A program made the translations under genes and the position numbers. From assembly GCA_015488685.1 (NCBI GenBank), contig WFNH01000074.1, positions 1 through 64,000 on the forward strand: a stretch of DNA of 64,000 nt. Reading direction: 5' to 3'. Below the pieces are notes generated by a model, which worked only from the letters and a program-made list of their open reading frames with translations, was not told the origin of the DNA and ran no database searches. Origin of the DNA: Marinosulfonomonas sp. Its GTDB lineage: Bacteria; Pseudomonadota; Alphaproteobacteria; Rhodobacterales; Rhodobacteraceae. Of the stretch, positions 20,558-44,978 are shown in pieces. Position 1 is the first letter of the stretch, and each line of letters opens with the position of its first letter.

Positions 20558-20610
20558 AAAATGCAATTGCGAAAATAGCAAAACAAAGGAAGTGGTTGGG
20601 GTTTATTAAG

Positions 20611-21087
20611 TTAACCAAGCCAATGGCGGGGCAAAGTTCTCCTGTGAACTTTTATCTGATGTTTAAGGCTGACTATTTGTTCAGTTACAGCAAGAACTAT
20701 CTCTTTATCAATCTTACGATCTGGATCGCCAAAATCTTTACCACTTGCTGTCTTGATGATTTCTTTTATTGATTTCTTGTTGTCTTCTTTATGATCGATA
20801 TCACATCGAAATAATTCGGAATTTATTAGGGTTAGTAATTTTAAATTAGCGGTAATGATAGCTTGCAGTTCTATCTCTTTAGTCCCAAGGTCTTTTGGAT
20901 TTTCGAGCCACATTCTCACACAGCACTTTTGAATACCATCTAGAGCATCGCAAAAAGCTGCAAGATCAACATCCTTGCGTTTTTCAGCTTCAGCACCAAT
21001 GGTAAATTGGCGGTCAATAAATTTCGCGACGAAATGAGCGGTGAAAGCACCAGCTGCTCCTGCACCAAAAGTAACCCACGAAAACAT
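20611..21087 (-). CDS. Membrane-anchored protein of the GHKL/STAS cassette
   Basis: 158 residues from the ATG that opens FSWVTFGAGAAGAF. A short hydrophobic N-terminus (about 3-22) anchors a helical cytoplasmic part rich in K, D and E, with ITANLKLLTLINSEL and VTEQIVSLKHQIKVH. No family is recognised. The gene begins 4 bp after the STAS-like gene stops, so the three are one operon. Codon use and A+T-richness match the cassette rather than mmcB, 80 bp downstream. Confidence 0.65.
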   Translation of the reverse strand: MFSWVTFGAGAAGAFTAHFVAKFIDRQFTIGAEAEKRKDVDLAAFCDALDGIQKCCVRMWLENPKDLGTKEIELQAIITANLKLLTLINSELFRCDIDHKEDNKKSIKEIIKTASGKDFGDPDRKIDKEIVLAVTEQIVSLKHQIKVHRRTLPRHWLG

Positions 21088-21091
21088 ATTA

Positions 21092-21424
21092 TTATGGTTC
21101 TGCCATATGATTTGCTGCGTCCTGAATATACTCCCATGCAAGATCAGAATATACAGAATAAAGATCATTCTCTGCTTTAATAGTTAGTACGCGTTCGAGT
21201 TCCACTAAGGAATATCCTTTTTCCCGTACAAGCCCCCCAAATGCTTCCTCTAAGAAGGAGGCTGGGTATCCGGCAACATCATCCAAATATACCGTAACTT
21301 TGTTCTCACTTTCCAGAGCAGGCCCAAGAATGGTTTCGCGAAATTCTTCACCACTTCCGTTTCCGTGTCTGCGATATCTTCCGCCAGGGAATTTAGTATA
21401 GTCTGCTATGCGTATATTTGTCAT
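21092..21424 (-). CDS. STAS-like (DUF4325) domain protein
   Basis: 110 residues from ATG at 21424; an upstream ATG at 21454 overlaps the preceding gene. The motif GxGSGEEFRETILGPAL, the strand VTVYLDDVAGYPASFLEEAFGGL and the following glycine turn are those of DUF4325, a STAS-related fold seen beside GHKL ATPases. STAS domains classically bind GHKL kinases, as SpoIIAA/SpoIIAB do. By analogy it may partner the upstream ATPase; that is an inference. Confidence 0.75.
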   Translation of the reverse strand: MTNIRIADYTKFPGGRYRRHGNGSGEEFRETILGPALESENKVTVYLDDVAGYPASFLEEAFGGLVREKGYSLVELERVLTIKAENDLYSVYSDLAWEYIQDAANHMAEP

Positions 21425-21440
21425 GATCCTATCTATACTA

Positions 21441-22502
21441 TCAAAATGCATCAATGGGTATACTCCATTCTACCAGTGTCCCACCTATATGGGCAGGAAG
21501 TTGCTGTTTTTCACTATTGCGGCTACAATTATACTTCACATCTCCTTTACCACTAACAATACGGATGTATGCATTATCTGCAATTTCAGTGGCTTCTCTC
21601 ATTTGATTTAACCCACGTCCTCGACCATCTATTCCAGTGCTTGTACGCCCAATTTCGAATGCACCATCGATTGTAGTCGCATCATTTGACATGCTTATAC
21701 CTGGAATTTTTGATAATGCTTGCCGCCAATCGGCTTTCTCTCCAATAGTTCTTGGAATGCCTACCCCTTGATCGTAGATGAAAAATCTTAACGAATTGTT
21801 TCGCATGTCAACGCAGGCTGTTGCCCACCATCGGTGCCCCGCATATGAGTATTTGGGTCTGATTGCTCCCATGTCAGGGTAAGCGTGGTCAATACAGTTG
21901 TTGGCAGCTTCTAATAATCCTTGGTAGATTTTGGGGTTTGCAACGAATGCCTGAAATATCCGTGATAAATCTAATTGCAGTTGTTGAAGCTCTTGGCCAT
22001 TAGACTTTTCTCCAGATCTCAGTTTTAGAACAGTGATGTTCTCCTGATATTTTTGCGTGGTTGGGTAAACTCTTTGCGCTCCAACAAGCTCAAAACAGCC
22101 TAAATCAGCCAGCAAGCTTTTAACTCGAGGCTCCCAAGATGATAGATTTCTAGCGCGTAAGTGTGTGTTTTGAAGCCGTCGCCATCTATCAAGTTCCGCT
22201 GATAGTATTACTGCTGCGGGAACGGAAATGCGTGTGATCCTTGATAGGTCTATGTAGGCTGATGCAGTTTTCCATCTCCCCCTTTTTTGGATTTTTTTCT
22301 TTGTGAATACGGCGCTTTTAAATTCGTCAAAGAAGTTTATTGTACCAGAAGGGTTCATTGATATGCTGAGGATTGTTGGGGCATTTACGATAATTTCTTG
22401 ATGAATGCTTTTAAATTTCTCGCTTCGGGAAAGTACAATTTCTCGACGGCGTCTTTTCACTTTCAACCATCTATGGTGATCTCCCAATATTAATTTCTTC
22501 AT
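21441..22502 (-). CDS. STAS-like / GHKL ATPase fusion protein
   Basis: 353 residues. The basic N-terminus is followed by a STAS-like strand-helix segment (about 78-140, SAYIDLSRITRISVPAA). The C-terminal half is a GHKL ATP-binding domain: N-box E198..NN..DH206, G1 box YDQGVGIP (244-250), G2 box GRGRGL (293-298) and G3 GGT (340-342). No histidine phosphoacceptor or receiver domain is present, so it is not a standard sensor kinase. It leads the three-gene cassette and has a promoter-like region of its own. The gene is clearly A+T-richer than the host and phage genes. Confidence 0.75.
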   Translation of the reverse strand: MKKLILGDHHRWLKVKRRRREIVLSRSEKFKSIHQEIIVNAPTILSISMNPSGTINFFDEFKSAVFTKKKIQKRGRWKTASAYIDLSRITRISVPAAVILSAELDRWRRLQNTHLRARNLSSWEPRVKSLLADLGCFELVGAQRVYPTTQKYQENITVLKLRSGEKSNGQELQQLQLDLSRIFQAFVANPKIYQGLLEAANNCIDHAYPDMGAIRPKYSYAGHRWWATACVDMRNNSLRFFIYDQGVGIPRTIGEKADWRQALSKIPGISMSNDATTIDGAFEIGRTSTGIDGRGRGLNQMREATEIADNAYIRIVSGKGDVKYNCSRNSEKQQLPAHIGGTLVEWSIPIDAF

Positions 22503-22532
22503 GCGACTCGTTTCTTTCGATTAGGGCCTTTA

Positions 22533-22576
22533 TAAATATTCGCCTTTTAAACTATCGGCAATGTAAATAAACATTG
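22533..22576 (-). promoter_or_regulatory. Promoter-like region and palindrome upstream of the ATPase cassette
   Basis: On the minus strand TTGCCG and TATTTA are 17 bp apart, a sigma-70-like pair. CAATGT-AAATAA-ACATTG, an inverted repeat with 6-bp arms, overlaps the -35 side at 22559-22576 and could be an operator. Confidence 0.45.
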
Positions 22577-22679
22577 TTATTCTTTACTTTAAGTGGTGCC
22601 TATCCAGCAATAACTCTCCCGTTTGGTTGTCTGTCAGAAATACCTAGCTATCCAATATTCAGTGACAGCGCATAAACGC

Positions 22680-22718
22680 TTGCGTGGCGAGCTACACACA
22701 GTGTAGCTCGCCACGCAA
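22680..22718. terminator. Perfect 18-bp hairpin between prophage late genes and the ATPase cassette
   Basis: TTGCGTGGCGAGCTACAC and its exact complement are separated by only 3 bases, followed by ATTTTAC on the plus strand and GCGTTTATG on the minus strand. It sits 60-100 bp after the Dam gene stop, so it could end phage late transcription; the T-tract is better in the plus direction. Confidence 0.55.
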
Positions 22719-22781
22719 TTTTACAGTGTTTGCCACAGATATTTACAGCAGAAGGTTTTTGGGGGCATTAGGGTTTGCTCC

Positions 22782-23597
22782 TTATTGTGACGGCAGATCG
22801 TAATTTGCAATCAGAACCTCGCCGCGTTCGCCGCGTGCTTCGCTCTTCAATCCGATTGTATAGGTGGTTTTGATCTGCGCGATATTGAACCGCCCAAAGG
22901 TTTCACGCACCCCTTCAACATCATTTAATGACATTATGAAGCGGCCTTTAATGGCCGATAGAACATCTGCCAACCGGGTGAAATCCGCGCGGGTGAACAC
23001 CTCTTTGCCGTAATCGTTCTCGCAGCCCCAGTATGGCGGGTCCAGATAGAACAGCGTCTTGCGGCTGTCGTAACGTGGGATGAAGTCACCGAAGTCCAGA
23101 CACTCGATCACCACGCCCGTCAGGCGGCTGTGCAGATCCTCGAGCATTGGTTCCAGCGTGGTCAGGTTGAACCGTGCCGGACGGTCCTTGGACACGCCGA
23201 AATTGCGGCCCGAAACCTTGCCGCCAAAGGCTGTGCGCTGCAGATAAAGGAAACGTGCGGCACGCTCCAGATCGGTCAGGGTGGCCGGATCGGTATCGAG
23301 CAGGCGCTGGAACTCGACGCGGGTGGTCAACTGGAAGCGCAGGTGGTCCAGAAACTGCGGGTAGTGGCGTTGCAGAATCCGGAACAGATTGGCCACGTCG
23401 CGGCTGTAGTCATTGATGACCTCGGCGCGTGGCTGACGGGTGCGCCGCAGGAAGATACCGCCCATGCCGACAAACGGTTCGGCATAGGTGCGGTGGTCAT
23501 CTGCATCAATCAGGGCGCAAATGCGCTTGGCAAGATTGCGCTTGCCGCCCAGATACGGGGCGACTGGGGCGGTTTTCTGGATGGAATGTGTAGACAT
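22782..23597 (-). CDS. DNA adenine (N6) methyltransferase, Dam/D12 class
   Basis: 271 residues from ATG opening STHSIQKTAP. The SAM motif FVGMGG is at 42-47 and the catalytic DPPY at 186-189, with PYLGGKR at the N-terminus, in the order of the D12 class. The target sequence is unknown; GATC is only a guess. It is the last gene of the phage right end, where Mu carries its DNA modification gene mom, so protection of phage DNA from restriction is the likely role. A 140-bp gap, with an AGGGTG-CACCCT hairpin, separates it from the fibre gene. Confidence 0.88.
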   Translation of the reverse strand: MSTHSIQKTAPVAPYLGGKRNLAKRICALIDADDHRTYAEPFVGMGGIFLRRTRQPRAEVINDYSRDVANLFRILQRHYPQFLDHLRFQLTTRVEFQRLLDTDPATLTDLERAARFLYLQRTAFGGKVSGRNFGVSKDRPARFNLTTLEPMLEDLHSRLTGVVIECLDFGDFIPRYDSRKTLFYLDPPYWGCENDYGKEVFTRADFTRLADVLSAIKGRFIMSLNDVEGVRETFGRFNIAQIKTTYTIGLKSEARGERGEVLIANYDLPSQ

Positions 23598-23737
23598 AAT
23601 TAACCGAATCGTTTCTAGATTGGCGCTCCCTCGAGGGACAGGAGCGGCCTTGATCTTGTTGGGGTCGGCGGGGTTAGCTGTGAGAGGTTTGGCCCCGTGT
23701 CGGAGGGTGTGTCTAGCACCCTTTGACCTCCTGCTAT

Positions 23738-25897
23738 TTAGAAAAATAAACCAGTAACCCACGCACTGACCGTTAGGGTCGCAGCCCCGCTTTCAATGCT
23801 ATCATATTCGATCTCGCCAGCCGCGCTTAACCCCGCAGTAAACTCGGCCTGTCTTGGCTCGCTGTCCGGCACACCGCGAACATTCAATTCATGGAAGTTG
23901 GCCGAGGTCGCATAATCAGGGTGGTGAATGCGAAACCGGGGCCGCGCCGCAGTTGCTGCGGCTGATCCTGTGTCGGCCATTTTGAAACGCATTCGAGCAG
24001 ATATGGGGCCTATGCCCCCAACGGTTTTGTATTTGGGGAAATCGGTAGCAAGGTCAATCATTGCCCCGCTATTAGTCGCTACGGTTCCAACAGCCTTTGC
24101 TGACCAGCCCGTCACAAGCTCCGGCAGACTATAGGTCGTATTGAATTCTGACAGGTCCAATTCCGTTCGGGACATGCCGTTCAGGTCAATCACGCCGGAA
24201 CTGAACATGGCCGGTTTTTTGACCCGCACAGATTTGCAGGAGGCGTCAAATTTAATCGGCACACCACCAGCAGCTGTTTGTGAAAAGCGCCCGACAATAT
24301 CCACCTCGGACAGATTTTCCAATACCAGTCCGACCGCCGCGCCACCATTGATGCCTACCGATCCCAGATCTAGATCAAACTGCACAGAACCCTGCCCGCG
24401 TTTGATACGGTCACGCAAGCGGACACCAACTGCCCCTGCTGCGCCGGAACCGCTTTCGAAATGGTTCGCGCCTTTTATCTTAAAATTCTGCCATGTCGGG
24501 TTCTGCACGATATAGGCTGCGTTGCCCTCGATCACAGCCGTTGCCCCGCTGGTTCCGCCAGTCAGAGTTTCACCTGCGACAAAGTTAGCCACCGACTTGT
24601 CTGTTCCAACCAGCCACGTTAATGGTTGTGCAATTTGGAAGGGGAAAGGATGCGTATACATTTCGGCAACCAGCATTGTTGCACCACTCGCCGCGCCGGT
24701 AACGGTCTCGCCCGCCGTGAACGCGCCTGTGACCGTGTTAACCCCAATCAGGACGGACCGCTCAATATCCAATGCGGCAACGTGTGCAGCGCCAGTTCCA
24801 AGGTTAAATGAGACATCCCTGACTTCACTATCTGCCAACGGTAAGTATGATTTGATCGCAGGGGTTGTTACATTTGCATGGCTGTTGTGGATGTTGTGTA
24901 TGTTGACCAGCAGTGGCCCACCGATAGCAGACCAAGGCGGGAACAGGATATTGTGCTGGCAGTTGTATGATTTGAATTCACCCACCCGCAGCGTGTCTTT
25001 GCCACCCATAATGATATTGGTATGGAACCCCTCGAAATGCGCAGGTCGCAGGGTGGAGTTGCGGAAACCCATCCACCGGAACGCGGCGGCCTTTGTCGGG
25101 CTGGCCAATGTGCATTTGAAATTCCCACCGGTCCAGTTGAAATTCTGGCGGCTTTCGTTGTCGCTATAGGTCGGATCAGCCTTTGCGTTCAGATCAAACA
25201 TCAGAATGTCGTTCGCGGTTTCAAAAGTAGCCCCACGCGCGTCAATGTGCATTCCATGAGGGTCTGCGATGTAACAGCCGCTTGTTAGCGTATAATGTCC
25301 GCAGATTCTCACGGCCTTGTTGGTGGCGACGCTGGCATAATCGAACATAGCCTGAAAGGCTGGGCCATCCGGTGTTGTCCCGAAATGCTCCGGGGTGACA
25401 ACGCCATATGGTTCGAAACCAGATAGTGCAGGTAATCCTGAAGCGCCTGAAACAGAAATGAACGGAGCACCTCCTGCCAATACAATTGTGCCCGCAACCC
25501 ACTGAACACCCCGCGCAACAGCCTCCTCGAACCGTTGCAAACTGGTGAAAGTATTTCCCGATTCATACAGCTTGATGCCGCCAGATGTTGTTTCATGTTG
25601 ATCTGTGGCGGTAGAGGACGCCACTTCGAGAATGTACCCGCCCACTGAAATCAGATCTCCCTGAGACACAGTGCCGGGCTGATCCAGCGAGTATGTCATC
25701 AAATTATCAACGGTTAGTGCTTGATGGTTGCCGAAACCGGCCCTGATTGGCAATGTATCAAATGCCCCACCTGATTTTAATTGTTGTGCCATATCCGGCA
25801 CAAGTATTTTTACGGTCGTCCCCGCAAAATTGCCAAGAAGGGAATCCAGCGTTGCAGATTCAAGCAGGTCTGTTGTCTTTACGCCGTTTTGTGCCAT
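23738..25897 (-). CDS. Phage tail fibre/tailspike with beta-helix
   Basis: 719 residues. The N-terminal part (about 1-140) should attach to the tail tip. FGTTPDGPAFQAMFDYAS and later GCYIADPHGMHIDARGATFETAND are typical of pectate-lyase-like right-handed beta-helices in tailspikes. Two related GET(V/L)TG(A/G)xSGAT segments lie near 395-450. It sits at the distal end of the tail genes, 12 bp after TipJ. It probably binds or cleaves a surface polysaccharide; no catalytic residues are assigned. Confidence 0.75.
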   Translation of the reverse strand: MAQNGVKTTDLLESATLDSLLGNFAGTTVKILVPDMAQQLKSGGAFDTLPIRAGFGNHQALTVDNLMTYSLDQPGTVSQGDLISVGGYILEVASSTATDQHETTSGGIKLYESGNTFTSLQRFEEAVARGVQWVAGTIVLAGGAPFISVSGASGLPALSGFEPYGVVTPEHFGTTPDGPAFQAMFDYASVATNKAVRICGHYTLTSGCYIADPHGMHIDARGATFETANDILMFDLNAKADPTYSDNESRQNFNWTGGNFKCTLASPTKAAAFRWMGFRNSTLRPAHFEGFHTNIIMGGKDTLRVGEFKSYNCQHNILFPPWSAIGGPLLVNIHNIHNSHANVTTPAIKSYLPLADSEVRDVSFNLGTGAAHVAALDIERSVLIGVNTVTGAFTAGETVTGAASGATMLVAEMYTHPFPFQIAQPLTWLVGTDKSVANFVAGETLTGGTSGATAVIEGNAAYIVQNPTWQNFKIKGANHFESGSGAAGAVGVRLRDRIKRGQGSVQFDLDLGSVGINGGAAVGLVLENLSEVDIVGRFSQTAAGGVPIKFDASCKSVRVKKPAMFSSGVIDLNGMSRTELDLSEFNTTYSLPELVTGWSAKAVGTVATNSGAMIDLATDFPKYKTVGGIGPISARMRFKMADTGSAAATAARPRFRIHHPDYATSANFHELNVRGVPDSEPRQAEFTAGLSAAGEIEYDSIESGAATLTVSAWVTGLFF

Positions 25898-25909
25898 AGT
25901 ATGAACACC

Positions 25910-28900
25910 CTATTCAATCTGTGTGGTTATAGGCCCCGATAATGGCCCGGGCAGCACTTGGGATAAGCCCCCAAGGGTTTGCGGTTCCAGATAGTAATCA
26001 TAAAGACCCGAGGCGATGCAGACGGGCGTTTCCATGAAGGTCACCACATCATCAACAGAGCCGTCGAAGTCGGATGAGGCGACCAGCTCGAACGTCGCAT
26101 TGCCCGTGGCTGCTTGAATGCGATCGAGCGCCAGACCGTTCACAGCAACAGCAGTGCCATCGACAACCGATCCACCGGACAGCCGTGGAGTTACGGTTCC
26201 TGCCGTCCGCCCCGAAACGGTAAGCGCAATCCGGTAATATTCCCCAGCCGTCACATTGACCGGTTGGTGCAGGCTGTCAGCCGCGCCCGTAAAGTGAACC
26301 GCATGACCATCTGTCACCGTCCAGTTCGTATCTGCCACCCAAGTGGCGGCTGTTGTAAACTCGCCATTGTCCAGCAGGTTTGACCGTGTGCCATCCCCGT
26401 CGATGTAGACAGCCGTTGTGCCGGGGCTGACCGGGAAGGGATCGCCAACCGCATGCAGTGTGCGATCCAGAGCAACGCCTGTCGGGGCGCGAAACAGCTG
26501 GATTTGCTCCGGCGGATTGACTGTCCCGATAGCCACGGTCACAGCTGCACTGCCCATACTGCCGCGAATAACAATCGAGCTGATCGGCATAAAGTTCGGG
26601 ATCCACGGATCATTCGCCCCGATCATTACGGATATTACAGGCGTGTACGGGCCTTGCTGCCCGTCATCTCCGATAGCCGAGGCGCGCAATTCGACCGTGG
26701 CACCGCTGGTATAGCTTTCAATCAGCACACCTCCATCAGCCACAGGCACATCAACGGGTGTCCAGACCGAGTCCCCTTCTAACCTGTGTTCTATTTTCAG
26801 GGTTTTTACTGTTGCGGTTGATCCCGCCCCGACCCCGACCAACACACGAATATGGTCAGCATTGCCCGTGCCGTCCAGCCCTGTTGCTATCGTCCGGAAT
26901 TCAGGTGCGGCAGGGGCCGGTGGCGGGGTTGTAGGAACAAGGGATGAGCCGACCCGACCGTCCCACGAGGGCGGGATTTCCGCATCTGCCAGATCTTCGA
27001 TTTCAGGCGCGGCCGCAACCATATTCAGGATGCTGGAAAAATTCTCGCCCGCCTCGACCCCCTTGATCTTCAGGGCAATGCTTTCGGTTGTCTTGATCCC
27101 GAAATGCACCAGATCACCCACTTGCGGGCCGCTCTGGCCGGATTGCAGGCGTAGGGCAGAGGTTTCCCCAATCGCCCCTGCCACCGCACGCACGATGGAT
27201 TGGCCGATCGTATCCGCAGCCCCGAACACCCGGAACCGGATGGCATAGTTTTTGTCCGGCTCGATTGTGACAGTTTCGTCCAGAATGATCAGATCATCCC
27301 TGACCTCGAGCACCCGTGCGGCTGCCTGACTGCGTTCCAGCGCATCAAAGCTGCCCATGATCGTGTCTCCACGGGTGGCAACACGCACCGCGCCATCCTG
27401 CATTGCGGTAAACACATCCGGTCTGTGCATCAGCTCGTACATGCGGCGGCGCGCCTCAATCCAGATTTCGTCCGGGTCCGTCTTGCCCGGCAGGTTCAGG
27501 GCCTCGGTCAGGGTGATATCGCCGGTATGGCCGACCCACGGCACAATGCGTTCAGCATCCTGATAGTCGTTTGTTTCATCAAAGAATTTCACACGGAAGG
27601 CATGGGGCGGGTCAAAATACGAACGGCTCCATGTGAAGTCCGTGCTGTTGCGCGGATTGATGTGATCCACAATCAGATCGTCGGGACGGTCCACCACAAC
27701 TCCCCAACGCAACCCGTCATGGCGCGGGGTTGCCCGGCCAGCCGCGCAGATTTTCAATAGCATGTCGGAGAGGGTTTCGGCGGACTGGTGCACATAGTCG
27801 TATTTCAGACCTTTGGCGGTGCAGTATTCATGCCAGCGGGCCAGCATATCCCAGTCGATTTCGCTGTCGGAAACCGGATAGGGATTTGATGGCCCCGCCA
27901 GCGCCTGAATATAGGCTGTGGCAGGGTTGCGGGACAGGTTTTCTATCCATTCCGACCCATTCCAGTCCCGCGCATAACGCTGGACGATAGCATTGAAATT
28001 ATCCAGTGCGCCGTTCAACTGGTATGTCGCCCTGATACGCATGGCGACAAGGGCTACGGGTTTGTCAAAATTGATCGGATATTCCGGGCGGATCGACTGG
28101 ATTGCCGACAGGTAGGATCGGGTCGATGCACTGGAGGATGTCGACTCGGCCGTCATTCTGGTGACCTCGATCTGCCAGCGGCCGCGCGATGGCAATTTCC
28201 ATGTATGCTGGCGAAAGAAACCTGACCGTTCGCTCGCCGAGATCGACAGGGTTTCAACATCTTGCCAGCTTACATCCCCTACCAGACGTTGCCGGATTCT
28301 GATTTCCACGGTTGCAGCGCGGACTTTGCCTTTGCCATCGACCCAGAACAGCCCACTGGGAAATGCCAGAATGACCGATGCGGTTTCTGTATCCACCGCA
28401 GTATAGCGGCGGATCGGGGTTTCGATCGGTGTGCCTCCGGGTACATATTCACCCGCATCATCACGCGGATATGGACGGGTCAGCTCGATGCTGGTTGGAT
28501 CCTCGAGCACCTGATTTGGATACAGTGTTATGGGCGCATCACCCTCCACACCTTCACGCACCTCGATATCGACATCCCTGTAATCGTCGATCAGGGTTTC
28601 TCCCAGTTTGAAACCGCTTAAGGACAAACGGCCATAGCCAAAACAGAACAAGGCGCGGATATACTGCTGGTCCCCCACGATCTCGGTGTAGGACATCGCA
28701 CCGTATGGCGGCGCAAACCGGTGTTTTCCCAGAACCAGAGGAACGGGTTCATCCCGGCGCAGGGCGTTCTGCAAACCGGAAATCGAATAGGTGTTCTTTT
28801 TGCTGATATCATCGGGTGTCGGCACCGGTATCAGTGCATTCAAAAGCAGCGACCCGACCACATTTAGACCGGCAGCGATCAGACTGATCCCCAGTTTGCT

Positions 28901-29239
28901 GGTGATCCCGAAAAAACCCGCAACTGCAGGTGCAAAGGCCAGTGCCACCACCGAAATAACAACGGTCAGGATGCTGCGCAGGGCCGACTTGCCCGGAATC
29001 AGCCGGATGATGACCTGCACGCCGGTGCATGGGCGGGTGCAGTGCCAGAACCGGCGCTCGATGATTTGTGCCCCGTTGGCGGTCACCAGACAGAGCCGCA
29101 AATTCTCGTGCTCGTAAACCGGCAGGTCCGGCATCGTGCGCTTTACCATTTCCAACAAGGTCAGCCCCTCGGGCAAGGCAGCATTGATGCGGCCCTGTCC
29201 GGGATCAAGCAGCGGGGAGGCCATTACAGGGACCGTCAT
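25910..29239 (-). CDS. TipJ-type phage tail tip / host-specificity protein
   Basis: 1109 residues, the size class of lambda J-like central tip proteins. The N-terminus has GLTLLEMVKRTMPDLP followed by a hydrophobic segment (about 85-140) characteristic of TipJ proteins. SGLQNALRRDEPVPLVLGKHRFAP is the conserved tip motif. The C-terminal part (from about 760) has fibronectin/Ig-like beta repeats. It lies directly after NlpC/P60, in the usual order for a non-contractile tail. It would contact the receptor together with the fibre. Confidence 0.85.
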   Translation of the reverse strand: MTVPVMASPLLDPGQGRINAALPEGLTLLEMVKRTMPDLPVYEHENLRLCLVTANGAQIIERRFWHCTRPCTGVQVIIRLIPGKSALRSILTVVISVVALAFAPAVAGFFGITSKLGISLIAAGLNVVGSLLLNALIPVPTPDDISKKNTYSISGLQNALRRDEPVPLVLGKHRFAPPYGAMSYTEIVGDQQYIRALFCFGYGRLSLSGFKLGETLIDDYRDVDIEVREGVEGDAPITLYPNQVLEDPTSIELTRPYPRDDAGEYVPGGTPIETPIRRYTAVDTETASVILAFPSGLFWVDGKGKVRAATVEIRIRQRLVGDVSWQDVETLSISASERSGFFRQHTWKLPSRGRWQIEVTRMTAESTSSSASTRSYLSAIQSIRPEYPINFDKPVALVAMRIRATYQLNGALDNFNAIVQRYARDWNGSEWIENLSRNPATAYIQALAGPSNPYPVSDSEIDWDMLARWHEYCTAKGLKYDYVHQSAETLSDMLLKICAAGRATPRHDGLRWGVVVDRPDDLIVDHINPRNSTDFTWSRSYFDPPHAFRVKFFDETNDYQDAERIVPWVGHTGDITLTEALNLPGKTDPDEIWIEARRRMYELMHRPDVFTAMQDGAVRVATRGDTIMGSFDALERSQAAARVLEVRDDLIILDETVTIEPDKNYAIRFRVFGAADTIGQSIVRAVAGAIGETSALRLQSGQSGPQVGDLVHFGIKTTESIALKIKGVEAGENFSSILNMVAAAPEIEDLADAEIPPSWDGRVGSSLVPTTPPPAPAAPEFRTIATGLDGTGNADHIRVLVGVGAGSTATVKTLKIEHRLEGDSVWTPVDVPVADGGVLIESYTSGATVELRASAIGDDGQQGPYTPVISVMIGANDPWIPNFMPISSIVIRGSMGSAAVTVAIGTVNPPEQIQLFRAPTGVALDRTLHAVGDPFPVSPGTTAVYIDGDGTRSNLLDNGEFTTAATWVADTNWTVTDGHAVHFTGAADSLHQPVNVTAGEYYRIALTVSGRTAGTVTPRLSGGSVVDGTAVAVNGLALDRIQAATGNATFELVASSDFDGSVDDVVTFMETPVCIASGLYDYYLEPQTLGGLSQVLPGPLSGPITTQIE

Positions 29240-29656
29240 TCAATCCTCCTTTAACCGGGTTTGAATATGGCGATAAACGCCGACAAAACGCGATACCCAG
29301 CGCGGATCTGTGCGGTCCTCGATCTTGGCTGCATCATCGGACTGGATATGCAACATCCAGCGATCATCGATCACGATGGCCACATGGGTCGACAACCGCC
29401 CGTGCCGGTACAGGATCAGATCGAACGGACGCGGGTTTTCGACCGGCTGCCATATCTGTTTGTCATGGCGGCGATCCAGCAAAGCGGCGACTTCTGCGGC
29501 TTCCTCGGCGCTGGAATAGCTTTCTGTGTAGGATGGCAGGGCGATCCCCAGTTCCCGCGCATAGACCAGCCGTGCCAGTCCCCAGCAATCGCACCCGTCA
29601 AAGCCGCGCCCCCGATCAGCATAGGGGATGCCGATATATCCGTCGGACCACGCCAT
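29240..29656 (-). CDS. NlpC/P60-family peptidase of the tail tip
   Basis: 138 residues forming one NlpC/P60 domain: Cys24 in GCDCWGLARL, His91 in LSTHVAIV and His103 in WMLHIQS make a plausible catalytic triad. In siphophages this protein (lambda K-like) cleaves peptidoglycan stem peptides during DNA entry. The gene abuts DUF1833 upstream and TipJ downstream without gaps. Confidence 0.88.
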   Translation of the reverse strand: MAWSDGYIGIPYADRGRGFDGCDCWGLARLVYARELGIALPSYTESYSSAEEAAEVAALLDRRHDKQIWQPVENPRPFDLILYRHGRLSTHVAIVIDDRWMLHIQSDDAAKIEDRTDPRWVSRFVGVYRHIQTRLKED

Positions 29657-30180
29657 CAGCGGAACAGCCCCGGAAAACGGTCTTTGGTAAATCTGTCCAT
29701 CGGCACGGATTCCTCCTCGATGGGCGCGCGGGAAATCGAGATCGAGACCTCGCCTGCATTGCCGTCTACACCGATGATGTTCAGGTTGCGGTATTCCGCC
29801 TCGACCAGATCGGGCGAGGAGGCCAGAACCACCGCCATATGCACCACAGGCCGGTCGGTGAAACTGCGCAACAGATGCGCGATTTCATTGTCGACATTTT
29901 CCAGCACCAATGTGGCCGCAGCGGGTGCGTCTTCCAGATCGGACGGGAACTCGGCCGAGGCCAGAATGAACAGATAAGGGTCGGTCTGCGGGTCCGCCCC
30001 GGACCAGCTGGATCGGGTGCCATAAAGCAGTGGATCGATCGACAGGCGTTCGGTCGGATCGGTTGACAGGCGCACAGGGGCGGGTAACTCCGGATGCTCG
30101 ACGGTCAGCAGAACGACCTCGACTTCGGGGCTGCTGGCTTCTTCAAGGGCCGCACGGGCGTTTAGTGAAACCCGTCTCAT
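29656..30180 (-). CDS. DUF1833-type phage minor tail protein
   Basis: 174 residues from ATG opening RRVSLNARAALEEA; the longer ORF-track start lies in the preceding gene. EVEVVLLTVEHPELPAPVRLSTDP and LVLENVDNEIAHLLRSF fit DUF1833, a minor tail component (lambda L-like position). Four-base overlaps with both neighbours indicate translational coupling. Confidence 0.78.
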   Translation of the reverse strand: MRRVSLNARAALEEASSPEVEVVLLTVEHPELPAPVRLSTDPTERLSIDPLLYGTRSSWSGADPQTDPYLFILASAEFPSDLEDAPAAATLVLENVDNEIAHLLRSFTDRPVVHMAVVLASSPDLVEAEYRNLNIIGVDGNAGEVSISISRAPIEEESVPMDRFTKDRFPGLFR

Positions 30181-30599
30181 GGCAGCACCGAGATCTGGAA
30201 TGCGATCCGGAACCGGATGCCCTTGACGGTTTCGCGCGGGGTCGATGCACCGAACAGGCACAGCCAGCGGGCCGACAAAAGCAGCGGCGCGCCGCTGCCA
30301 GTCAGCAACGGGTTGCCGCTGGCATCCAGCATTGACCAGCCATCGGTTGTCGGGTCGGGCATCCAGAACGGTTTGGTGCCCAGTTTTGTTGCTGTCCGGT
30401 AAAAATTGTCAAAGACCGCTTTCTCGGATCGCGGCACGTCAATCGTCATTGAATATTCCCGCACCACGCTGGAAAAACGTCGCCGGTATGCGGGTGGGCC
30501 GGTTTCACCGGATTTGCTTTTGCGTCCGTCCTGCAGCTGTGACTGGAACCCGTTTCGCATCGGGCGCGGCAGGCTCTCGGGCCAAGTGGCAATGTTCAT
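30177..30599 (-). CDS. Phage minor tail protein (lambda M-like position)
   Basis: 140 residues. WPESLPRPMRNGFQSQ near the N-terminus and a core with VVREYSMTIDV and FWMPDP fit the small tail-tip proteins that lie between tape measure and the DUF1833 gene. The start overlaps the tape-measure stop (ATGA). The exact Pfam family was not identified. Confidence 0.7.
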   Translation of the reverse strand: MNIATWPESLPRPMRNGFQSQLQDGRKSKSGETGPPAYRRRFSSVVREYSMTIDVPRSEKAVFDNFYRTATKLGTKPFWMPDPTTDGWSMLDASGNPLLTGSGAPLLLSARWLCLFGASTPRETVKGIRFRIAFQISVLP

Positions 30600-33280
30600 C
30601 GTAAGGCCCCCCCGGGCCGCAACCCGTATTTACGCTTCAGAACGCGATCGGCCCCGCCTCCGGCCGTGGTCATGGCATCCCCCACGGCATCGGCCAGCAC
30701 CAGCTTGTGCGATCGCCGCCCGCTGCTGTCGACGGATTCCTCGACTTCGCCGTGAACCGGTGTAGAGGACTGGTTTTCGATCACGATCAGCGGAGCCTGT
30801 GACACAGCACCGGACGCACCCTGACCGCGCATATAGGCAGGGGCAACCAGCCCACCGGCGGCAAGGCCCGGAATGTCATTACCCGCATTGATCAGTTCCA
30901 GCAGCCCGCGATGTTTTTTGGTTGCGGCGGCATTGACCATAAATTCGCCACTGCTGCCCCACATCAGCACATCATCCGACGTACCGGACCCGGGGCCGTA
31001 GATCATGCCGCCATCGGCATTCGCCGGAATGGAGGCGGGTTTCAGCCCGGGGAAAGCCGCTCCCAAAACCATACCGATCAGCCCGCCCGAGCCGCCCGTG
31101 CCCAACAGGGCGGCCAGCGGGCCTTCCCCTAGCAGAATGGCTTTCAACGCGGCCGCCTCTATGCTCTGGGCTACATTGTCCATCACATCGGCCAATGTAT
31201 TGCCTTGCAAGATCAGACCATCCAGCGCGTTATAGGTTGTGTCGGTCAGAAGATCCCATGTTTCCTTTTGCTGTTCCAGCGTCCGGGTCTCGTTGTTGCG
31301 CTGTGCGATCAGATCGGCGATGGTCTGCTTTTCCGCCGCTGTTGCATGCGCCAGTGCCTCGCGGTTGCGCAGCATTTCCTTTTGCACCGGATCGGTTTCC
31401 CGCAGGACCGCCAGTTCGTCCTTCAGACTCTGGATCAGCTTTTTGGCCGCATCTTCCTGTTTGCGGCTTCCACCGCCACCACCGCGATGTTTGCGGGGCG
31501 GCTTCCAGTTTTCAAGGAACACGATGGCATCTTTATTCTGCCAGTCCGAAATACTGCCGCCCTGTTTGCGTGGATCACCACCGCGACCGGCACCCGCGCC
31601 GGATTGTCCCATTGCAGCGATCTGGGCGGCGGTTTGCAAGGAAATACCAAGGGCAGCGGCCAGCCTTTCGGCCTCTGCAGCTGCACTTGAAACTCCGCCT
31701 GCCATATTGAGTGAAGCCAGCGCCTGGCCTTTCTCAAACGCCGCCAGCAGTTCAGCCTTCAGATCGGCAGACACATTCATTGTGTCCAGCGTATTCTCGA
31801 ATACCTGACGCTCGGATTGCGCGCGCAATTGTGCAACCTGCGCCGATCCTTCACCATACCGCAGGATCGCGGCACGGATCGCGTTTTCCTGCTGCAGAGT
31901 TTGCAGCATCTTTTGGGCCGAGGCGGCTTCCTGATAATTTGATTTCACCCGGGCAGAGGCATATTCATATGCACTTGCTGCCCATTCCGCCATCGGGTTC
32001 CGGGGCTGGTTGGCCTTGTCCCATGTGGCCATCAGCGTGGCCTTCAATTCTTTGGCCACCCCCAGTTCTTCAACCTTCTGCGCATAAATTTCGCGCTCGT
32101 GCGCCAGTCGCAGGTTCGCCACTTGTGCGCTGTCAGCCCCGAATTGTGCTGTTGCCTCGTTGATCTGGACCTCGCGCTCCAGTTCGGCCAGCATATCCCT
32201 TTGCTTTGAAACCTGCGCATCTGCCGCACGTTTGCTGGCCTCGTCCAGCGCCAACAATTCCTGAAGACGCAAGATCTGTTCCGCGATCAGACTAAGGTGC
32301 TTGTTCTCGCTATCAGACACACCGTCAACGGCCTCGGCCGCTTTGGATGTAACATCATAGGTGCGTTGCCATGCGGCGATCTGTTTTTCAATCGTATCAT
32401 TGGTTGTTGCATCGATTTCTGCATAGGCTGCCCCAACCTCCTTCACGAGATTTTGGCGCAGATCGTTTCCAATTCGATCCGTCCCCAATCCAAACTGGGC
32501 GGCGATGTCGCGTTGGCTAAATTGATCGGCATAGGCGGCAGAACCACGGCCCACAGTTACTTTCTCTGCAATGGCCCCTGTTTTCAGCAAAGCCTCTCGA
32601 CGGCGCACCTCGGTTAGCGCCTCCAGATATTTGCGCGCTTCTGTTGCTCCAGAACCAAAACGTTCGATCAAAGAGGCCGTGTCCATCCGCGCGTCATGCA
32701 CCGATGCGCGATAGCGGTCTATGCCCTCTGACAGGCTGTCGATGCGTTCTTCCAGCGACATTGCCGCAGGGCCTGACTCCCGGAACCATCCAACCAGCGC
32801 AGCCCCGGCCGCAATCGCGCCAATGGTGATAAAATTGATCGGGCTTAACATCGACACAAACGCCGATCCCAGCGCATTGACCGCCCCTGCCGCACCCATC
32901 GGTCCGATCACCTGCGTGATCTGGGTGCCTTGCTGCAGGGCCAGTTGCAACGGGTTCTGCCCTGCCGCCATCATGACACCAACGTCATTGAACTGGGCAA
33001 CCAGATTGCCGACGCTGCCTGCAGCTGCTTTGTTTGCTGCCCCCAGCTTGCCAACAGTATTGGCGGCGGCAACCTCGGCAGCGGAAAGCTGCCTCACTTG
33101 CGTCTTAGCAACTACCGCACTGACCCCGAGCGCTTTGGTTCCGATAGTTGCAGCTTTGCCTTTCCGGCCCAGATTTTCGGTGGACTTGGTTACGGTGTCG
33201 GTGGCTTTACCGGTAGCGGTCAACTCGGCCTTGGCCTGACGAGCGTCGGCCTTCAGCAACATAGACATATTAATGGTCAT
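30596..33280 (-). CDS. Tail tape measure protein
   Basis: 894 residues, mostly helical. The N-terminus has the KADARQAKAELT repeat pattern. A glycine/alanine-rich hydrophobic region (about 90-170, VGNLVAQFNDVGVMMAAGQNPLQL) is the classical tape-measure motif. Coiled-coil segments follow, and a C-terminal GSSGEFMVNAAATKKHRGLLELINAG is common in such proteins. It sets tail length and passes through the envelope at injection. At about 0.15 nm per residue a tail near 130 nm would be expected (inference). Confidence 0.9.
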   Translation of the reverse strand: MTINMSMLLKADARQAKAELTATGKATDTVTKSTENLGRKGKAATIGTKALGVSAVVAKTQVRQLSAAEVAAANTVGKLGAANKAAAGSVGNLVAQFNDVGVMMAAGQNPLQLALQQGTQITQVIGPMGAAGAVNALGSAFVSMLSPINFITIGAIAAGAALVGWFRESGPAAMSLEERIDSLSEGIDRYRASVHDARMDTASLIERFGSGATEARKYLEALTEVRRREALLKTGAIAEKVTVGRGSAAYADQFSQRDIAAQFGLGTDRIGNDLRQNLVKEVGAAYAEIDATTNDTIEKQIAAWQRTYDVTSKAAEAVDGVSDSENKHLSLIAEQILRLQELLALDEASKRAADAQVSKQRDMLAELEREVQINEATAQFGADSAQVANLRLAHEREIYAQKVEELGVAKELKATLMATWDKANQPRNPMAEWAASAYEYASARVKSNYQEAASAQKMLQTLQQENAIRAAILRYGEGSAQVAQLRAQSERQVFENTLDTMNVSADLKAELLAAFEKGQALASLNMAGGVSSAAAEAERLAAALGISLQTAAQIAAMGQSGAGAGRGGDPRKQGGSISDWQNKDAIVFLENWKPPRKHRGGGGGSRKQEDAAKKLIQSLKDELAVLRETDPVQKEMLRNREALAHATAAEKQTIADLIAQRNNETRTLEQQKETWDLLTDTTYNALDGLILQGNTLADVMDNVAQSIEAAALKAILLGEGPLAALLGTGGSGGLIGMVLGAAFPGLKPASIPANADGGMIYGPGSGTSDDVLMWGSSGEFMVNAAATKKHRGLLELINAGNDIPGLAAGGLVAPAYMRGQGASGAVSQAPLIVIENQSSTPVHGEVEESVDSSGRRSHKLVLADAVGDAMTTAGGGADRVLKRKYGLRPGGALR

Positions 33281-33638
33281 TGCCGCCCTCCGTTCATTTC
33301 CGCGCGTGCCGCCCGTTCAATCACTCTCAATTCCGCCCAGCCTTCCGGCTTCAGTTTGATGCCGGCCATTTTCAGGCCGACCTTGACGCCGCAATAGTCC
33401 AGACCCGTGGCGATCAGGCTGCCGTCCGGCCGACAAACCGTGCGCCATTGTGATTGCACGGCCAGAAAGGCCTCGAGTGCCCGTTTGTTTTCCGGCCAGA
33501 CACCGTCAGCACCATCCGGTTCCAGATCGGCCGCTTGCAGATCAAGACCCAGCTGGCGCGCATCGGACAATGCCCCATCCTGTTCTTCGGATTTCGGGCC
33601 AAGCGATCCGTTTGCCCACGCCCGCCCGGCCCATTCTA
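33277..33638 (-). CDS. DUF1799-type tail assembly chaperone extension, made by -1 frameshift
   Basis: The -1 frame is open from CTA at 33639 to the stop at 33277 (about 120 codons). It contains WPENKRALEAFLAVQSQWRT and GLDYCGVKVGL, typical of DUF1799, the T half of a G/GT pair. The ORF track starts it at a TTG (33570) with no good ribosome site. It is most likely expressed by fusion to the upstream chaperone through GGGAAAC, giving about 229 residues. The stop overlaps the tape-measure ATG. Confidence 0.8.
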
Positions 33639-33965
33639 GTTTCCCACGCGCGCTTTCATCACGGCGCGCAGGTATGCATTCACCAATGCGATCCGCACAA
33701 AATACAGGCCCAGAAGCCGGTCGCGCAGCGCGTCGTTGTAAGGCAGCGGTTTTTTGTTGTCATCGACCACATCCTCGATCGAAACAATGACCTCCTTCAG
33801 AAAGTCTGTTGTGCCCTCGGCGGTATTCAGATCGAATGTCTCGGCGGCATCGGCTGGCAAAACGCGAAACCGCACAGACATGGTATCTTCCTTGTGCCCC
33901 CCGTCGACGGGAACCATGACAGGAACCTGATGGGTGAACTCGGGGCTGGTGGCAATTTGAAACAT
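33636..33965 (-). CDS. Tail assembly chaperone (G-like)
   Basis: 109 residues. VRFRVLPADAAETFDLNT and FLKEVIVSIEDVVDDNKKPLPYND describe a small acidic tail protein placed between tail tube and tape measure, the location of lambda gpG. Its last two codons, GGA AAC, form the slippery site just before TAG. Most ribosomes would stop here; a fraction would shift into the DUF1799 frame. Confidence 0.8.
   Translation of the reverse strand: MFQIATSPEFTHQVPVMVPVDGGHKEDTMSVRFRVLPADAAETFDLNTAEGTTDFLKEVIVSIEDVVDDNKKPLPYNDALRDRLLGLYFVRIALVNAYLRAVMKARVGN
33639..33645 (-). promoter_or_regulatory. Programmed -1 ribosomal frameshift site GGGAAAC
   Basis: The zero frame reads GTG GGA AAC TAG. The heptamer G GGA AAC is a canonical X-XXY-YYZ slippery sequence immediately before the stop. 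Slipping one base back gives GGG AAA CTA GAA TGG, which enters the open DUF1799 frame. Lambda G/GT uses the closely related GGGAAAG. Confidence 0.82.
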
Positions 33966-33986
33966 GGTTTTTCCTTTTGAAGTTTA

Positions 33987-34916
33987 TCAGGTCAGCGTCA
34001 GGGTCCACTGGTCATTTCCGACCGTGGGAACCGGCACCATGCGCAAGGGCCATTCGGTAATGTCCTGTGCATTTTCCAAGCCCTGCGGGCGCTGCATCTG
34101 GGCTGTCGGCAGCGACAGCGTGGCGATCTTGCCCGCCCCGACACCATGAACCAGAGAAACCGGCACGGACGACTGATCATTGGCCATCTGGTATGGATCC
34201 AGCGTTGTCAGCGGTACGGCTTCGACTGTCGCTTCGACAGATTCCGATTTATCCGTGATCAGGATGCCTTCCGAGCCGACCAGAAAACGCGGCTCGACCG
34301 CGTTGCCAAGGTTCAGCATACAGCTGCGCATCACCAGTGACGTGCCGTTGATTGTGAACGTCGTGGTGTTGGCGCTGGTGACGACCTGCGGCTTCTGGAA
34401 TGCATTCAGCGCGGGGGCGACACGGGGTTGTTCGCTGGGCAGTTTGAACAGCCCGGTGAATTCGAATTTCAGATACGGGATGCCTTGTGCGGTGAATTCC
34501 ATCGTGCATGTGCCACGGGTGCCCAACATCACATATTGCGTCCCGCCGATCCAGACATAGAGCGCGATGCTTTCGTGGCTGTCGGATACGGGATTATAGG
34601 TCACCGAGGTGCTGGCAACGATTGTTTCTGCAACCGCACAGGCCCGCAGCAACGGACCCCACGCAGGTGCTGTGCCTGCCGTGCCGCTGGGAGCCAGTTC
34701 GACGTTGAATGCCAGTTTGGAGTGCAGTTCGACAGGCACGGTGCCCTGTGCGCCGAGATACGGCAATTCCAGTTCACGGTCGACGTCATTGCCTTCCATT
34801 GGCGTCAGGGTCACTTGCGTGGCCAGAATGCCGTTTGCGCCAGTCGGGGTCGGATCCACGCCATAGGCGGATTCGATCTTTGCCAGCAGGATTTTACTGC
34901 GCCATTTAATAGCCAT
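33987..34916 (-). CDS. Major tail (tube) protein
   Basis: 309 residues starting MAIKWRSKILLAKIESAYG. It is rich in beta structure and small residues, with ELPYLGAQGTVPVELHSKL and CTMEFTAQGIPYLKFEFTG. This matches tail tube proteins of non-contractile Mu-like phages. No sheath gene follows, supporting a siphovirus-type tail. The start lies directly after the 50-residue gene. Confidence 0.82.
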   Translation of the reverse strand: MAIKWRSKILLAKIESAYGVDPTPTGANGILATQVTLTPMEGNDVDRELELPYLGAQGTVPVELHSKLAFNVELAPSGTAGTAPAWGPLLRACAVAETIVASTSVTYNPVSDSHESIALYVWIGGTQYVMLGTRGTCTMEFTAQGIPYLKFEFTGLFKLPSEQPRVAPALNAFQKPQVVTSANTTTFTINGTSLVMRSCMLNLGNAVEPRFLVGSEGILITDKSESVEATVEAVPLTTLDPYQMANDQSSVPVSLVHGVGAGKIATLSLPTAQMQRPQGLENAQDITEWPLRMVPVPTVGNDQWTLTLT

Positions 34917-35069
34917 TTAAGCCTCCTTTTTTGCTGGCTTGGAAACCGCCGGTTTTACGGGGGCATCAGCCGGTTTTGTCTGATCGTCAGGGTTGGGTTT
35001 CAGCGAACCATCCTTGGCACGCAGGAAACTGCCGCCGGTCTGTGGCAATGCATGGGGGGGCTTTGTCAT
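34917..35069 (-). CDS. Small 50-residue phage protein between gp37 and tail tube
   Basis: ATG at 35069 to TAA at 34917, missed by the ORF track. The sequence starts MTKPPHALPQTGGSFLRAKDG and ends in a lysine/proline/alanine tail (KPAVSKPAKKEA). It overlaps the gp37 stop by four bases, and its stop abuts the tail tube ATG, with AAAAAGGAGGC just before. The position corresponds to the small Mu gp38-type gene. Role unknown. Confidence 0.75.
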   Translation of the reverse strand: MTKPPHALPQTGGSFLRAKDGSLKPNPDDQTKPADAPVKPAVSKPAKKEA

Positions 35070-35497
35070 GGCGTAATCCTCAACTGGTCCTTGATGTTGA
35101 AATCGATCTGGTAGATCACTGTGCCCGCCTTCATGGTGACAAGGTTACCGCGCGCCAGCCGGAACACGCCGACCTCGTCATTCGGTCCCCATCCGGCAAT
35201 CGCGACAATCACCTGATCCAGCAACCCCTCGATATCGTCCAGAATACGGTCGGCCGTGGCGTCATAGCTTTTGAAGGTCAGCACCACCGCAATCGCCCGA
35301 TCAAACAACTGGGTGTAAAATCCGGCACCGGCCTCGCTTTGACCGCCCTGCAGCCCAAGACCAAGTACATAGGCTGACGGGGTCTGTTTGGGCAGCGTGT
35401 TGGTGCGCATCAGGTTGGCAAAATCAGCTGCACCGTAGATCCGGTTGTTCAATGCCGGAACCTTGGATTGCAGGCGGGCCATCACATCGGCAATCAT
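35066..35497 (-). CDS. Mu gp37-like tail terminator family protein
   Basis: 143 residues. MIADVMARLQSKVPAL and the middle FKSYDATADRILDDIEGLLD fit the DUF1834/gp37 group that caps the tail at the head-tail junction. One-base overlap with gp36 upstream and four with the next gene. Confidence 0.78.
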   Translation of the reverse strand: MIADVMARLQSKVPALNNRIYGAADFANLMRTNTLPKQTPSAYVLGLGLQGGQSEAGAGFYTQLFDRAIAVVLTFKSYDATADRILDDIEGLLDQVIVAIAGWGPNDEVGVFRLARGNLVTMKAGTVIYQIDFNIKDQLRITP

Positions 35498-35925
35498 CAG
35501 ATGAACCCCTTCAGATTGTCGGCGGTCAGGGGACGTTCACGATCGGTAATACGCACTCCGGTGCCGCCGGTTCCCGCAGGCTCGGCCCCTGCAACATCCA
35601 GACGGATGGTGCCTGACGCGATATCCTTCAGGGTGCGGATGGCTGCGTCATAGTCCTTTTCGATCTTGGGTTCGGCATCAGAGACATGCAGCTTCCAGAT
35701 TGCGATTGCCTCGGCCAACTCCTCGATCAGGCGGGGCGTGGCTGTGAGCGGCAAGCTGTACCGCGCGGCCAGATAGCCGTCGATCATGGCCTCTGCACCC
35801 GTAATGGCACTGTCCACCACAGCCGTATCGATTACACCGTTGGCAATCTCGGCCCGATCGGTCAGCGCAATCAGCATGCGCTCTCCGTATCGCTCGGTCA
35901 GTTTTGCAAGTGTTGTATAGGCCAC
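35497..35925 (-). CDS. Mu gp36-like protein (DUF1320)
   Basis: 142 residues. YTTLAKLTERYGERMLIALTDR at the start and AEAMIDGYLAARYSLPL, with a helical core, are diagnostic of DUF1320, a head-tail connector component. It lies between the FluMu-type protein and gp37, the usual Mu order. Confidence 0.85.
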   Translation of the reverse strand: MAYTTLAKLTERYGERMLIALTDRAEIANGVIDTAVVDSAITGAEAMIDGYLAARYSLPLTATPRLIEELAEAIAIWKLHVSDAEPKIEKDYDAAIRTLKDIASGTIRLDVAGAEPAGTGGTGVRITDRERPLTADNLKGFI

Positions 35926-35960
35926 GACGGGTTTCCTTGACGGGGTTTAATTGCGGATGG

Positions 35961-36479
35961 TTATTCGTCACCTTCAAGCGTGGTGACAGTCAGGGCCGGA
36001 TCCAGACGGATTGCGGCCATCTCGTCCTCGGTCAGATCGGCCAAAGGGATCAGTGTGGCCTCGGCCGTGAAATGCCGACCCGCCCGCCAGCGGCCACGCT
36101 TGGGGCCAACAATCGAGACACAGGGGCCTGTGATGCCCGTATCCCCGCCTTCAGGGCTGTCGGGGCCGGTGGCAGAATTCACCGGCCCCTCATTTGCCGC
36201 AGGTTCACCTGCGGCCACCGGGGGGGTATTGGTATTCGGGGCGGGTGCGACCGCAGATCCGTTCGCACCCTCATCCGACGGCCCGGCAGTATCAGGGTCC
36301 GAGGGGAAATTCCCGGCTTCGGGCAAACCGCCACCGGTCACACGGGTATCGGTCGAGTGGGCTTGCGCATCATTGATCCGCTTTTCCAGCTTGGCATCGC
36401 CAATATTCGCAGGAAATTTCAGGCCCAATGCATTGGCCTGCGCTTCCAGTTCCAAACGCTCTTTAGATTTGGTCGACAT
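35961..36479 (-). CDS. FluMu-type phage protein with HeH-like N-terminus
   Basis: 172 residues. A helix-extended-helix-like N-terminus (LEAQANALGLKFPANIGDAKLEKRI) is followed by a low-complexity linker rich in G, P, A and N (about 45-115). A compact C-terminal domain has GPKRGRWRAGRHFTAEAT and DLTEDEMAAIRLDP. The position after the major head gene matches the Mu gp35/FluMu family. Probably a minor capsid-associated protein. Confidence 0.65.
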   Translation of the reverse strand: MSTKSKERLELEAQANALGLKFPANIGDAKLEKRINDAQAHSTDTRVTGGGLPEAGNFPSDPDTAGPSDEGANGSAVAPAPNTNTPPVAAGEPAANEGPVNSATGPDSPEGGDTGITGPCVSIVGPKRGRWRAGRHFTAEATLIPLADLTEDEMAAIRLDPALTVTTLEGDE

Positions 36480-36551
36480 GTTCCGGCTCCTTATTGATTT
36501 GATAAAGCGGCCCAGCCCTGCCGGGCCGCTCTAAAAATCAACGTGCGGGGA

Positions 36552-37445: not shown

Positions 37446-37457
37446 TGCTGGGACTCC

Positions 37458-37907
37458 TTAAGGTGCAGCGATTTTGGTGATGGCTTCGTCAAAACGGACC
37501 CAGACGCCAAGAGGATCCACATCCTCGATCAGCCCGGCTGCAGAGCGGGGCATGCCGACACCAGTGCCGTCTGTCTTGGCAACCGTTTGGTCGTCGTCGA
37601 TCCATGCGACCGCGCCGATATCAGCGACGGTGATCTGATCGGCTGGCGATGCCGAATTTTCATAGCGGAAAATGCCCGGATCAAAACGCACAGTCAGATC
37701 ACCGTCGGCACCAGTGGAATTGTCGACAGGTTCATGGGCGCGACCAACGCCGTGCGATCCGGCGACTGCCTGACCATTCACCAGATATCCGGCGGCATTA
37801 CGCATCAGCATCGCCCCCGCGAAAATCTTGGTGGAGGCCGCGACAAGGCCGACACGGTTGTCACCCAAGCTTTGCGGTGTGTTACGGTCTTCGGTCAGTG
37901 CAGTCAT
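37458..37907 (-). CDS. Probable capsid decoration protein
   Basis: 149 residues, glycine/alanine-rich with predicted beta structure (VAASTKIFAGAMLMRNAAGYLV, DLTVRFDPGIFRYENS). It lies between protease/scaffold and the major head gene, where many phages encode a decoration or head-fibre protein. No family was recognised with certainty. Its start overlaps the protease stop by one base. Confidence 0.6.
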   Translation of the reverse strand: MTALTEDRNTPQSLGDNRVGLVAASTKIFAGAMLMRNAAGYLVNGQAVAGSHGVGRAHEPVDNSTGADGDLTVRFDPGIFRYENSASPADQITVADIGAVAWIDDDQTVAKTDGTGVGMPRSAAGLIEDVDPLGVWVRFDEAITKIAAP

Positions 37908-39010: not shown

Positions 39011-39039
39011 GCAGCGATAATCGCGTTGCAGGACGGCTC

Positions 39040-44977: not shown

Positions 44978-44978
44978 A

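Follow-up and report, generated by a model that had tools for sequence, protein, structure and literature searches.

A prophage-borne GHKL–DUF4325 cassette with a membrane-type third gene, related to the VapKSC switch

Introduction

What is the function of three close-packed, A+T-rich genes that encode a kinase-like protein, a DUF4325 protein and a helical protein at the edge of a prophage? The genes lie in a 64,000-nucleotide stretch of Marinosulfonomonas sp. DNA (contig WFNH01000074.1, positions 1 to 64,000), here called the window. A sequence-only reading of this stretch had suggested a phage-borne moron or a defence or signalling module. We call the three genes K, S and M, and ask where they lie, whether they belong together across genomes, what each product resembles and which known system comes closest to the whole.

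Results

Layout of the cassette in the window

Based on the ORF list and the sequence, K, S and M are close-packed on the minus strand from 22502 to 20611 (Table 1). The intergenic gaps are 16 bp between K and S and 4 bp between S and M, and the GC content of the cassette is 43% as compared with ~58% in the surroundings; the tight linkage and A+T richness described for the three genes are thus present as stated. The cassette had also been credited with its own promoter-like site containing a palindrome. The palindrome exists, but promoter-like matches were no more frequent than in shuffled sequence. A D12-class adenine methyltransferase gene (22782-23762) adjoins the cassette near the right end of the prophage, and a perfect hairpin lies between this gene and the cassette promoter region.

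Table 1. Coordinates of the cassette and of associated features in the window
Feature	Position	Strand	Basis
K, STAS-like–GHKL serine-kinase-like protein, 353 aa	21441..22502	-	ORF, Pfam, PHROG, alignment, AlphaFold2 model
S, DUF4325 STAS-like switch protein, 110 aa, invariant Ser56	21092..21424	-	Pfam PF14213, E 5.5e-10
M, N-terminal membrane segment and helical bundle, 158 aa	20611..21087	-	family hydrophobicity, predicted model
Ser56 codon of S, predicted phosphorylation site	21257..21259	-	alignment; inference
Palindrome CAATGT-N6-ACATTG upstream of K, possible operator	22559..22576		sequence; function inferred
Perfect hairpin, 16-bp inverted repeat, 3-bp loop	22682..22716		read from sequence
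Mu-like prophage, inserted, cassette at right end	20567..59905		empty site in congener; MuA Pfam DDE_2, 1.5e-49

The cassette is part of a Mu-like prophage

The boundaries of the prophage were given by an empty site in the congener G004 (L187), which joins window position 20566 to 59906. In this congener the mmcB side (to 20566) and the acyl-CoA dehydrogenase side (from 59906) are only about 10 bp apart, and therefore the interval 20567–59905 is a single inserted element. The element encodes a Mu transposase (DDE_2, E 1.5e-49), a MuB-like AAA protein, a ParB-like protein and an S24 repressor, and M ends about 45 bp inside its end. The cassette had been placed beside the prophage, between mmcB and the phage end. 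The empty site shows this placement to be wrong: the cassette is inside the element, at its extreme right end. The suggestion of a phage-borne moron or a defence or signalling module is supported. In a second congener, G001, this site holds a related prophage in reverse orientation; its methyltransferase gene is shortened and the cassette is absent, which would fit a cassette carried as optional cargo. This copy of the prophage itself appears shortened.

The site upstream of mmcB holds two related Mu-like prophages, in two congeners and in opposite orientations (window 20543-20566; L186 3780-4000; L187 3336-3346). The insertion lies about 10 bp beyond a GAAC-N7-GAAC direct repeat of LexA type, and the repeat is left intact.

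K is a STAS-like–GHKL protein that resembles serine kinases

The AlphaFold2 model of K (pLDDT 88) consists of a basic N-terminal helix (residues ~5–29), a STAS-like part (~37–140) and a GHKL domain (~150–350). The match to Pfam HATPase_c is weak and below the cut-off (E 4e-4). PHROG family 3364 matches K from end to end (E 9e-44), so the protein is already known from phages. As a single-sequence query against viral contigs K gave no matches, and the S profile was needed to find the relatives. In 64 aligned homologues, the GHKL residues E198, N202, Y208, D244, G246, G295, G297, G341 and T342 never vary, and H206 is almost always kept. The N, G1, G2 and G3 boxes of the GHKL superfamily are all kept; the fusion of a STAS-like part to a GHKL domain with these boxes is real, and the homologues show no loss of them. 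The Pfam search yielded neither a HisKA nor a receiver match, in agreement with the earlier statement that K has no histidine kinase dimerisation or receiver domain, and we reject the reading of K as a two-component histidine kinase.

In the PDB, a profile built from 70 K homologues matched RsbW and SpoIIAB (E 0.001–0.004) and nothing else, which supports the likeness to anti-sigma/antagonist switches pointed out at first reading. In a fold search with the K model, SpoIIAB was found at a probability of 1.0, and the GHKL domains of TRAP1/Hsp90 scored better by E-value. As that reading had also observed, no sigma factor is near: none was seen among the window ORFs around the cassette or in the annotated neighbourhoods that we looked at. 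Judged by homology and conserved residues, K is probably the Ser/Thr kinase that acts on S.

A tree of 50 kinases, which has some long branches, places the 38 K proteins of the membrane type, that is, those linked to an M-type third gene, in one group (SH-aLRT 99) and the VapK-type kinases in another (SH-aLRT 98). Trp225 is invariant in 64 of 64 membrane-type kinases. These proteins carry about 54 residues ahead of the STAS part with a median net charge of +13, whereas in four VapK-like proteins the net charge over residues 1–45 is –6 to +2. The aromatic residue implicated in activation by single-stranded DNA is W68 in CapK and F54 in VapK (PMC13373217). The presumed matching column of the K family, with the equivalence drawn through W53 of the Deinococcus VapK, holds R, E, Q, S or N, and R91 in the window. 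Because this aromatic is not conserved, the trigger of K may differ from the ssDNA that acts on VapK and CapK. A relative of the cassette at L171 (G035:C45:12053-13087) has its kinase frame broken by one in-frame stop, while its S and M are open.

S is a DUF4325 protein with a conserved serine

S scored 39.2 bits against DUF4325 (PF14213), for which the gathering cut-off is 23 (E 5.5e-10), confirming the family named for the second gene. At 110 residues, S has only a STAS-like domain, and a DNA-binding domain is absent. Against the PDB, the S profile had a sole and weak match, Escherichia VapS (9z7o, E 0.47). This match is supported by the reverse search, in which VapS found plasmid proteins annotated as STAS-like/DUF4325. 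One of these sits in an operon of HTH, STAS-GHKL, DUF4325 and PIN genes, whose K and S were recognised by our own K and S profiles with 34 bits and 20 bits, respectively.

The invariance of Ser56 in 167 loci was discounted because the scan pattern demanded that serine. We therefore re-tested it on sequences from a pattern-free search, and Ser56 was present in 17 of 17 relatives. It aligns with Ser58 of SpoIIAA; Ser48 of VapS aligns one column ahead. This preceding column, 55, is Ser in 148 of the 167 loci and Ala in the S of the window.

M is a helical protein of a membrane-type family

M has no match in Pfam, PHROG or PADLOC and no credible match in NCBIfam, and as a tblastn query against plasmids and phages it found nothing. 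The predicted model (pLDDT 95) shows a long N-terminal helix running into a helical bundle, and the family alignment shows a C-terminal motif of the TGGxF…R..D type. The third gene had been described as encoding a membrane-anchored helical protein. The helical part of this description holds; the hydrophobic N-terminal membrane segment is clear in most of the family but weak in the M of the window (Kyte-Doolittle ~1.1 over 19 residues). Fold searches returned only generic helical bundles and no match indicating toxicity. The weak matches include receptor sensor domains at E values above 0.2, which are not significant.

K, S and M form a linked unit

Scans of genome contigs with the S profile and a short S pattern found 272 relatives; in viral contigs they found 264. 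K was directly upstream of S in 152 of the 167 S-family loci examined. Where a downstream ORF was present, the third gene belonged to a single M family in 154 of 165 loci, the M of the window included (E 1.6e-22). The linkage was re-tested without the S pattern in 399 genomes of the same phylum. Pfam DUF4325 occurred in 29 of these genomes (~7%) and strong M matches in eight (~2%), and every one of the eight adjoins S. Four further M matches near E 1e-5 are probably due to chance. Seven of the nine strong K matches had M; the remaining two have S, followed by a divergent membrane-type third gene in G133 and with no third gene seen in G161. K is shortened in a further genome, G189. Homologues scattered as single, unlinked genes are thus not what was found, and K-S-M is a conserved mobile unit. 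In keeping with mobility, the cassette was present in only 3 of 61 near relatives. Cassette L148 as a DNA query had no match in E. coli genomes.

The DUF4325/GHKL loci in a census were of the membrane type, fused into a single chain, linked to a PIN gene, or paired with no third gene. The PIN identity was read by eye from the sequence at L198 and L200 and is annotated at L168. The loci L192, L194, L195 and L203 encode single-chain HTH–GHKL–DUF4325 proteins of ~335–350 aa; they make up an uncharacterised branch of this switch, apart from the others. GHKL and DUF4325 gene pairs without a membrane gene are found at L206 (1417-2651), L208 (1441-2615) and L191 (689-2746); the last pair is followed by a 221-aa gene which, by eye, we take to resemble the plasmid pRiA4b ORF-3 family.

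The unit travels on phages and plasmids

Marinobacter phage AS1 carries K, S and M in the same order beside CI/Cro. The same order occurs on plasmids of Leptospira, Acinetobacter and two Vibrio species, and a Novosphingobium plasmid has M as an unannotated third gene. The gene table of Francisella phage KIRK lists the three products of the cassette right after a CI-type repressor (PMC7924643). With contig ends as a proxy for prophage ends, the cassette was no more than 5 kb from an end in 28 of 53 IMG/VR contigs, as compared with 12.5 expected.

It had been proposed that co-occurrence with prophages or defence genes be tabulated. Carriage on phages and plasmids was evident; for defence genes the enrichment was only suggestive. 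Around the cassettes 110 PADLOC models were matched, versus 49 in the random control; the models overlap, and the 15 loci behind the count are too small a sample to support a claim. Integrase families accounted for 2–3 ORFs near the cassettes and for none in the top 25 of the control, and the matched random neighbourhoods contain methylases too. The three cassette proteins themselves had no model match in PADLOC-DB 2.0 up to E 1.

Discussion

The K-S-M cassette is a real, widespread and undescribed variant of a newly described switch. CapK is an ssDNA-activated STAS–GHKL kinase that phosphorylates CapS (PMC13373217, EMBO J 2026). The same paper describes VapKSC, composed of the STAS-GHKL kinase VapK, the STAS antitoxin VapS and the PIN toxin VapC. 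VapS restrains VapC until VapK acts, and phosphorylated VapS releases the toxin. VapKSC protects E. coli against one coliphage, Bas42, by ~2-log, and the protection requires S48 of VapS and D28 of VapC (PMC13373217). The main text of this paper mentions neither DUF4325 nor a transmembrane protein. We found no functional account of DUF4325 in the literature searched, and STAS and DUF4325 are absent from the main text of the DefensePredictor and E. coli functional selection papers.

Then, how might K-S-M work? At rest, S would bind the cytosolic helical bundle of M and hold M inactive. The basic tail and the STAS-GHKL groove of K would serve to detect infection or damage. Once activated, it would transfer the phosphate of ATP to Ser56 of S, as the SpoIIAB/AA, CapK/S and VapK/S pairs suggest. 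By analogy with VapKSC, phosphorylated S would then release M, and the freed M, acting at the inner membrane, may arrest growth or block an incoming phage. We give an even chance to this reading as a whole, a self-contained phage-borne partner-switching module in which M is released for abortive infection or superinfection defence. For M as the released effector we judge the balance slightly favourable because of the analogy with VapC and the strict linkage. Anti-phage defence as the selected benefit is likewise favoured by a little, because of VapKSC, the carriage by prophages at cargo positions and the weak neighbourhood evidence. Against the reading stand the fold matches of M, none of which points to toxicity, the non-aromatic column of K, the one-column offset between Ser56 and Ser48 of VapS, and the lack of a PADLOC match for any of the three proteins. 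The broader proposal, an undescribed and widespread class of phage-borne immunity in which a dedicated serine kinase phosphorylates a STAS antitoxin and so frees a membrane effector, the kinase having a sensor of its own (the basic tail and invariant Trp225 in place of the VapK ssDNA site), is tentative and would fall somewhat short of even chances.

The most pertinent alternative concerns M, which could be a sensor or membrane anchor that signals to K and S when the envelope is disturbed, for instance by phage adsorption or depolarisation, with a host or phage target outside the cassette as the output. Partner switches often have sensory partners, as in the RsbR/S/T stressosomes, and both the single N-terminal membrane helix of M and the receptor sensor domains among the fold matches of its bundle would suit such a part. 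Those matches, however, are not significant, no conserved fourth gene was seen, and the third gene of VapKSC is an effector (PMC13373217); we regard a sensory M as unlikely. It is also improbable that the cassette is an addiction or stability module of prophages and plasmids, with M freed on loss of the element and defence incidental. The presence on both kinds of element and the layout reminiscent of toxin–antitoxin systems point that way, but a three-protein kinase switch exceeds what plain addiction needs, and VapKSC, the nearest tested relative, answers a signal through its kinase (PMC13373217).

Control of lysis–lysogeny or induction, in which the module senses SOS or another stress and regulates the prophage, would fit the neighbours in AS1 and KIRK as well as the sensing of ssDNA by CapK (PMC13373217). 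In the window, however, the repressor (57602–58321) and the cassette lie at opposite ends of the prophage, cassettes are also found on plasmids, and S has no domain with which to bind DNA, so that we consider such control rather improbable. The similarity of K to SpoIIAB and RsbW raises the possibility that K is a true anti-sigma factor acting on a host sigma factor, with S as the antagonist and M as unrelated cargo. This is very improbable, since no sigma factor is linked, M is tied to the module across many hosts, and K-S is closer to VapK-S, whose target is not a sigma factor.

The partner-switching module with M as its output has consequences beyond this locus. It gives DUF4325, which has had no assigned function, a testable one, that of a phospho-switch in mobile modules. 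At least two alternative third genes occur on the DUF4325 switch, a PIN nuclease and the membrane protein M. If the broader proposal is true, GHKL-DUF4325 would be a general switch to which different killers are attached; and should M be a membrane effector, killing at the membrane under the control of phosphorylation would be a logic of phage defence for which we found no description in the literature searched.

Comparison with known systems

Several known systems share parts of this architecture. SpoIIAB–SpoIIAA and RsbW–RsbV likewise pair a GHKL serine kinase with a STAS partner, but the K of the cassette has in addition a STAS-like domain and a basic tail, and the cassette has a fixed third gene and no sigma factor nearby. 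CapK and CapS resemble K and S in combining a STAS–GHKL kinase with a STAS substrate, and CapKS is linked to immunity genes (PMC13373217). CapK, however, begins with an HTH and CapS ends with a winged HTH (PMC13373217), whereas K starts with a basic helix and the 110-aa S is without a DNA-binding domain. The HTH–GHKL–DUF4325 single chains and the GHKL and DUF4325 pairs contain the same two domains, but M is absent from them and they fall on separate tree branches.

VapKSC is the closest described system. Like K-S-M, it is a three-gene operon of a STAS–GHKL kinase, a single-domain STAS/DUF4325-like protein and an output gene; its K and S are detectably homologous to those of the cassette, and both appear to have a conserved Ser where the second STAS helix begins. 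In contrast to VapK, the K of the cassette has a basic N-terminal tail and the invariant Trp225, lacks the ssDNA-site aromatic and belongs to a separate clade (99%), and the conserved Ser of S is one column later than S48 of VapS. The third gene of VapKSC encodes a PIN nuclease, whereas M is a helical protein with a membrane segment and without a PIN match. Because the census separates the PIN-linked operons, the pairs, the fusions and the membrane type, the cassette is a sibling of VapKSC and not a member of it; it looks like a VapKSC relative with a membrane protein in the place of the killer enzyme.
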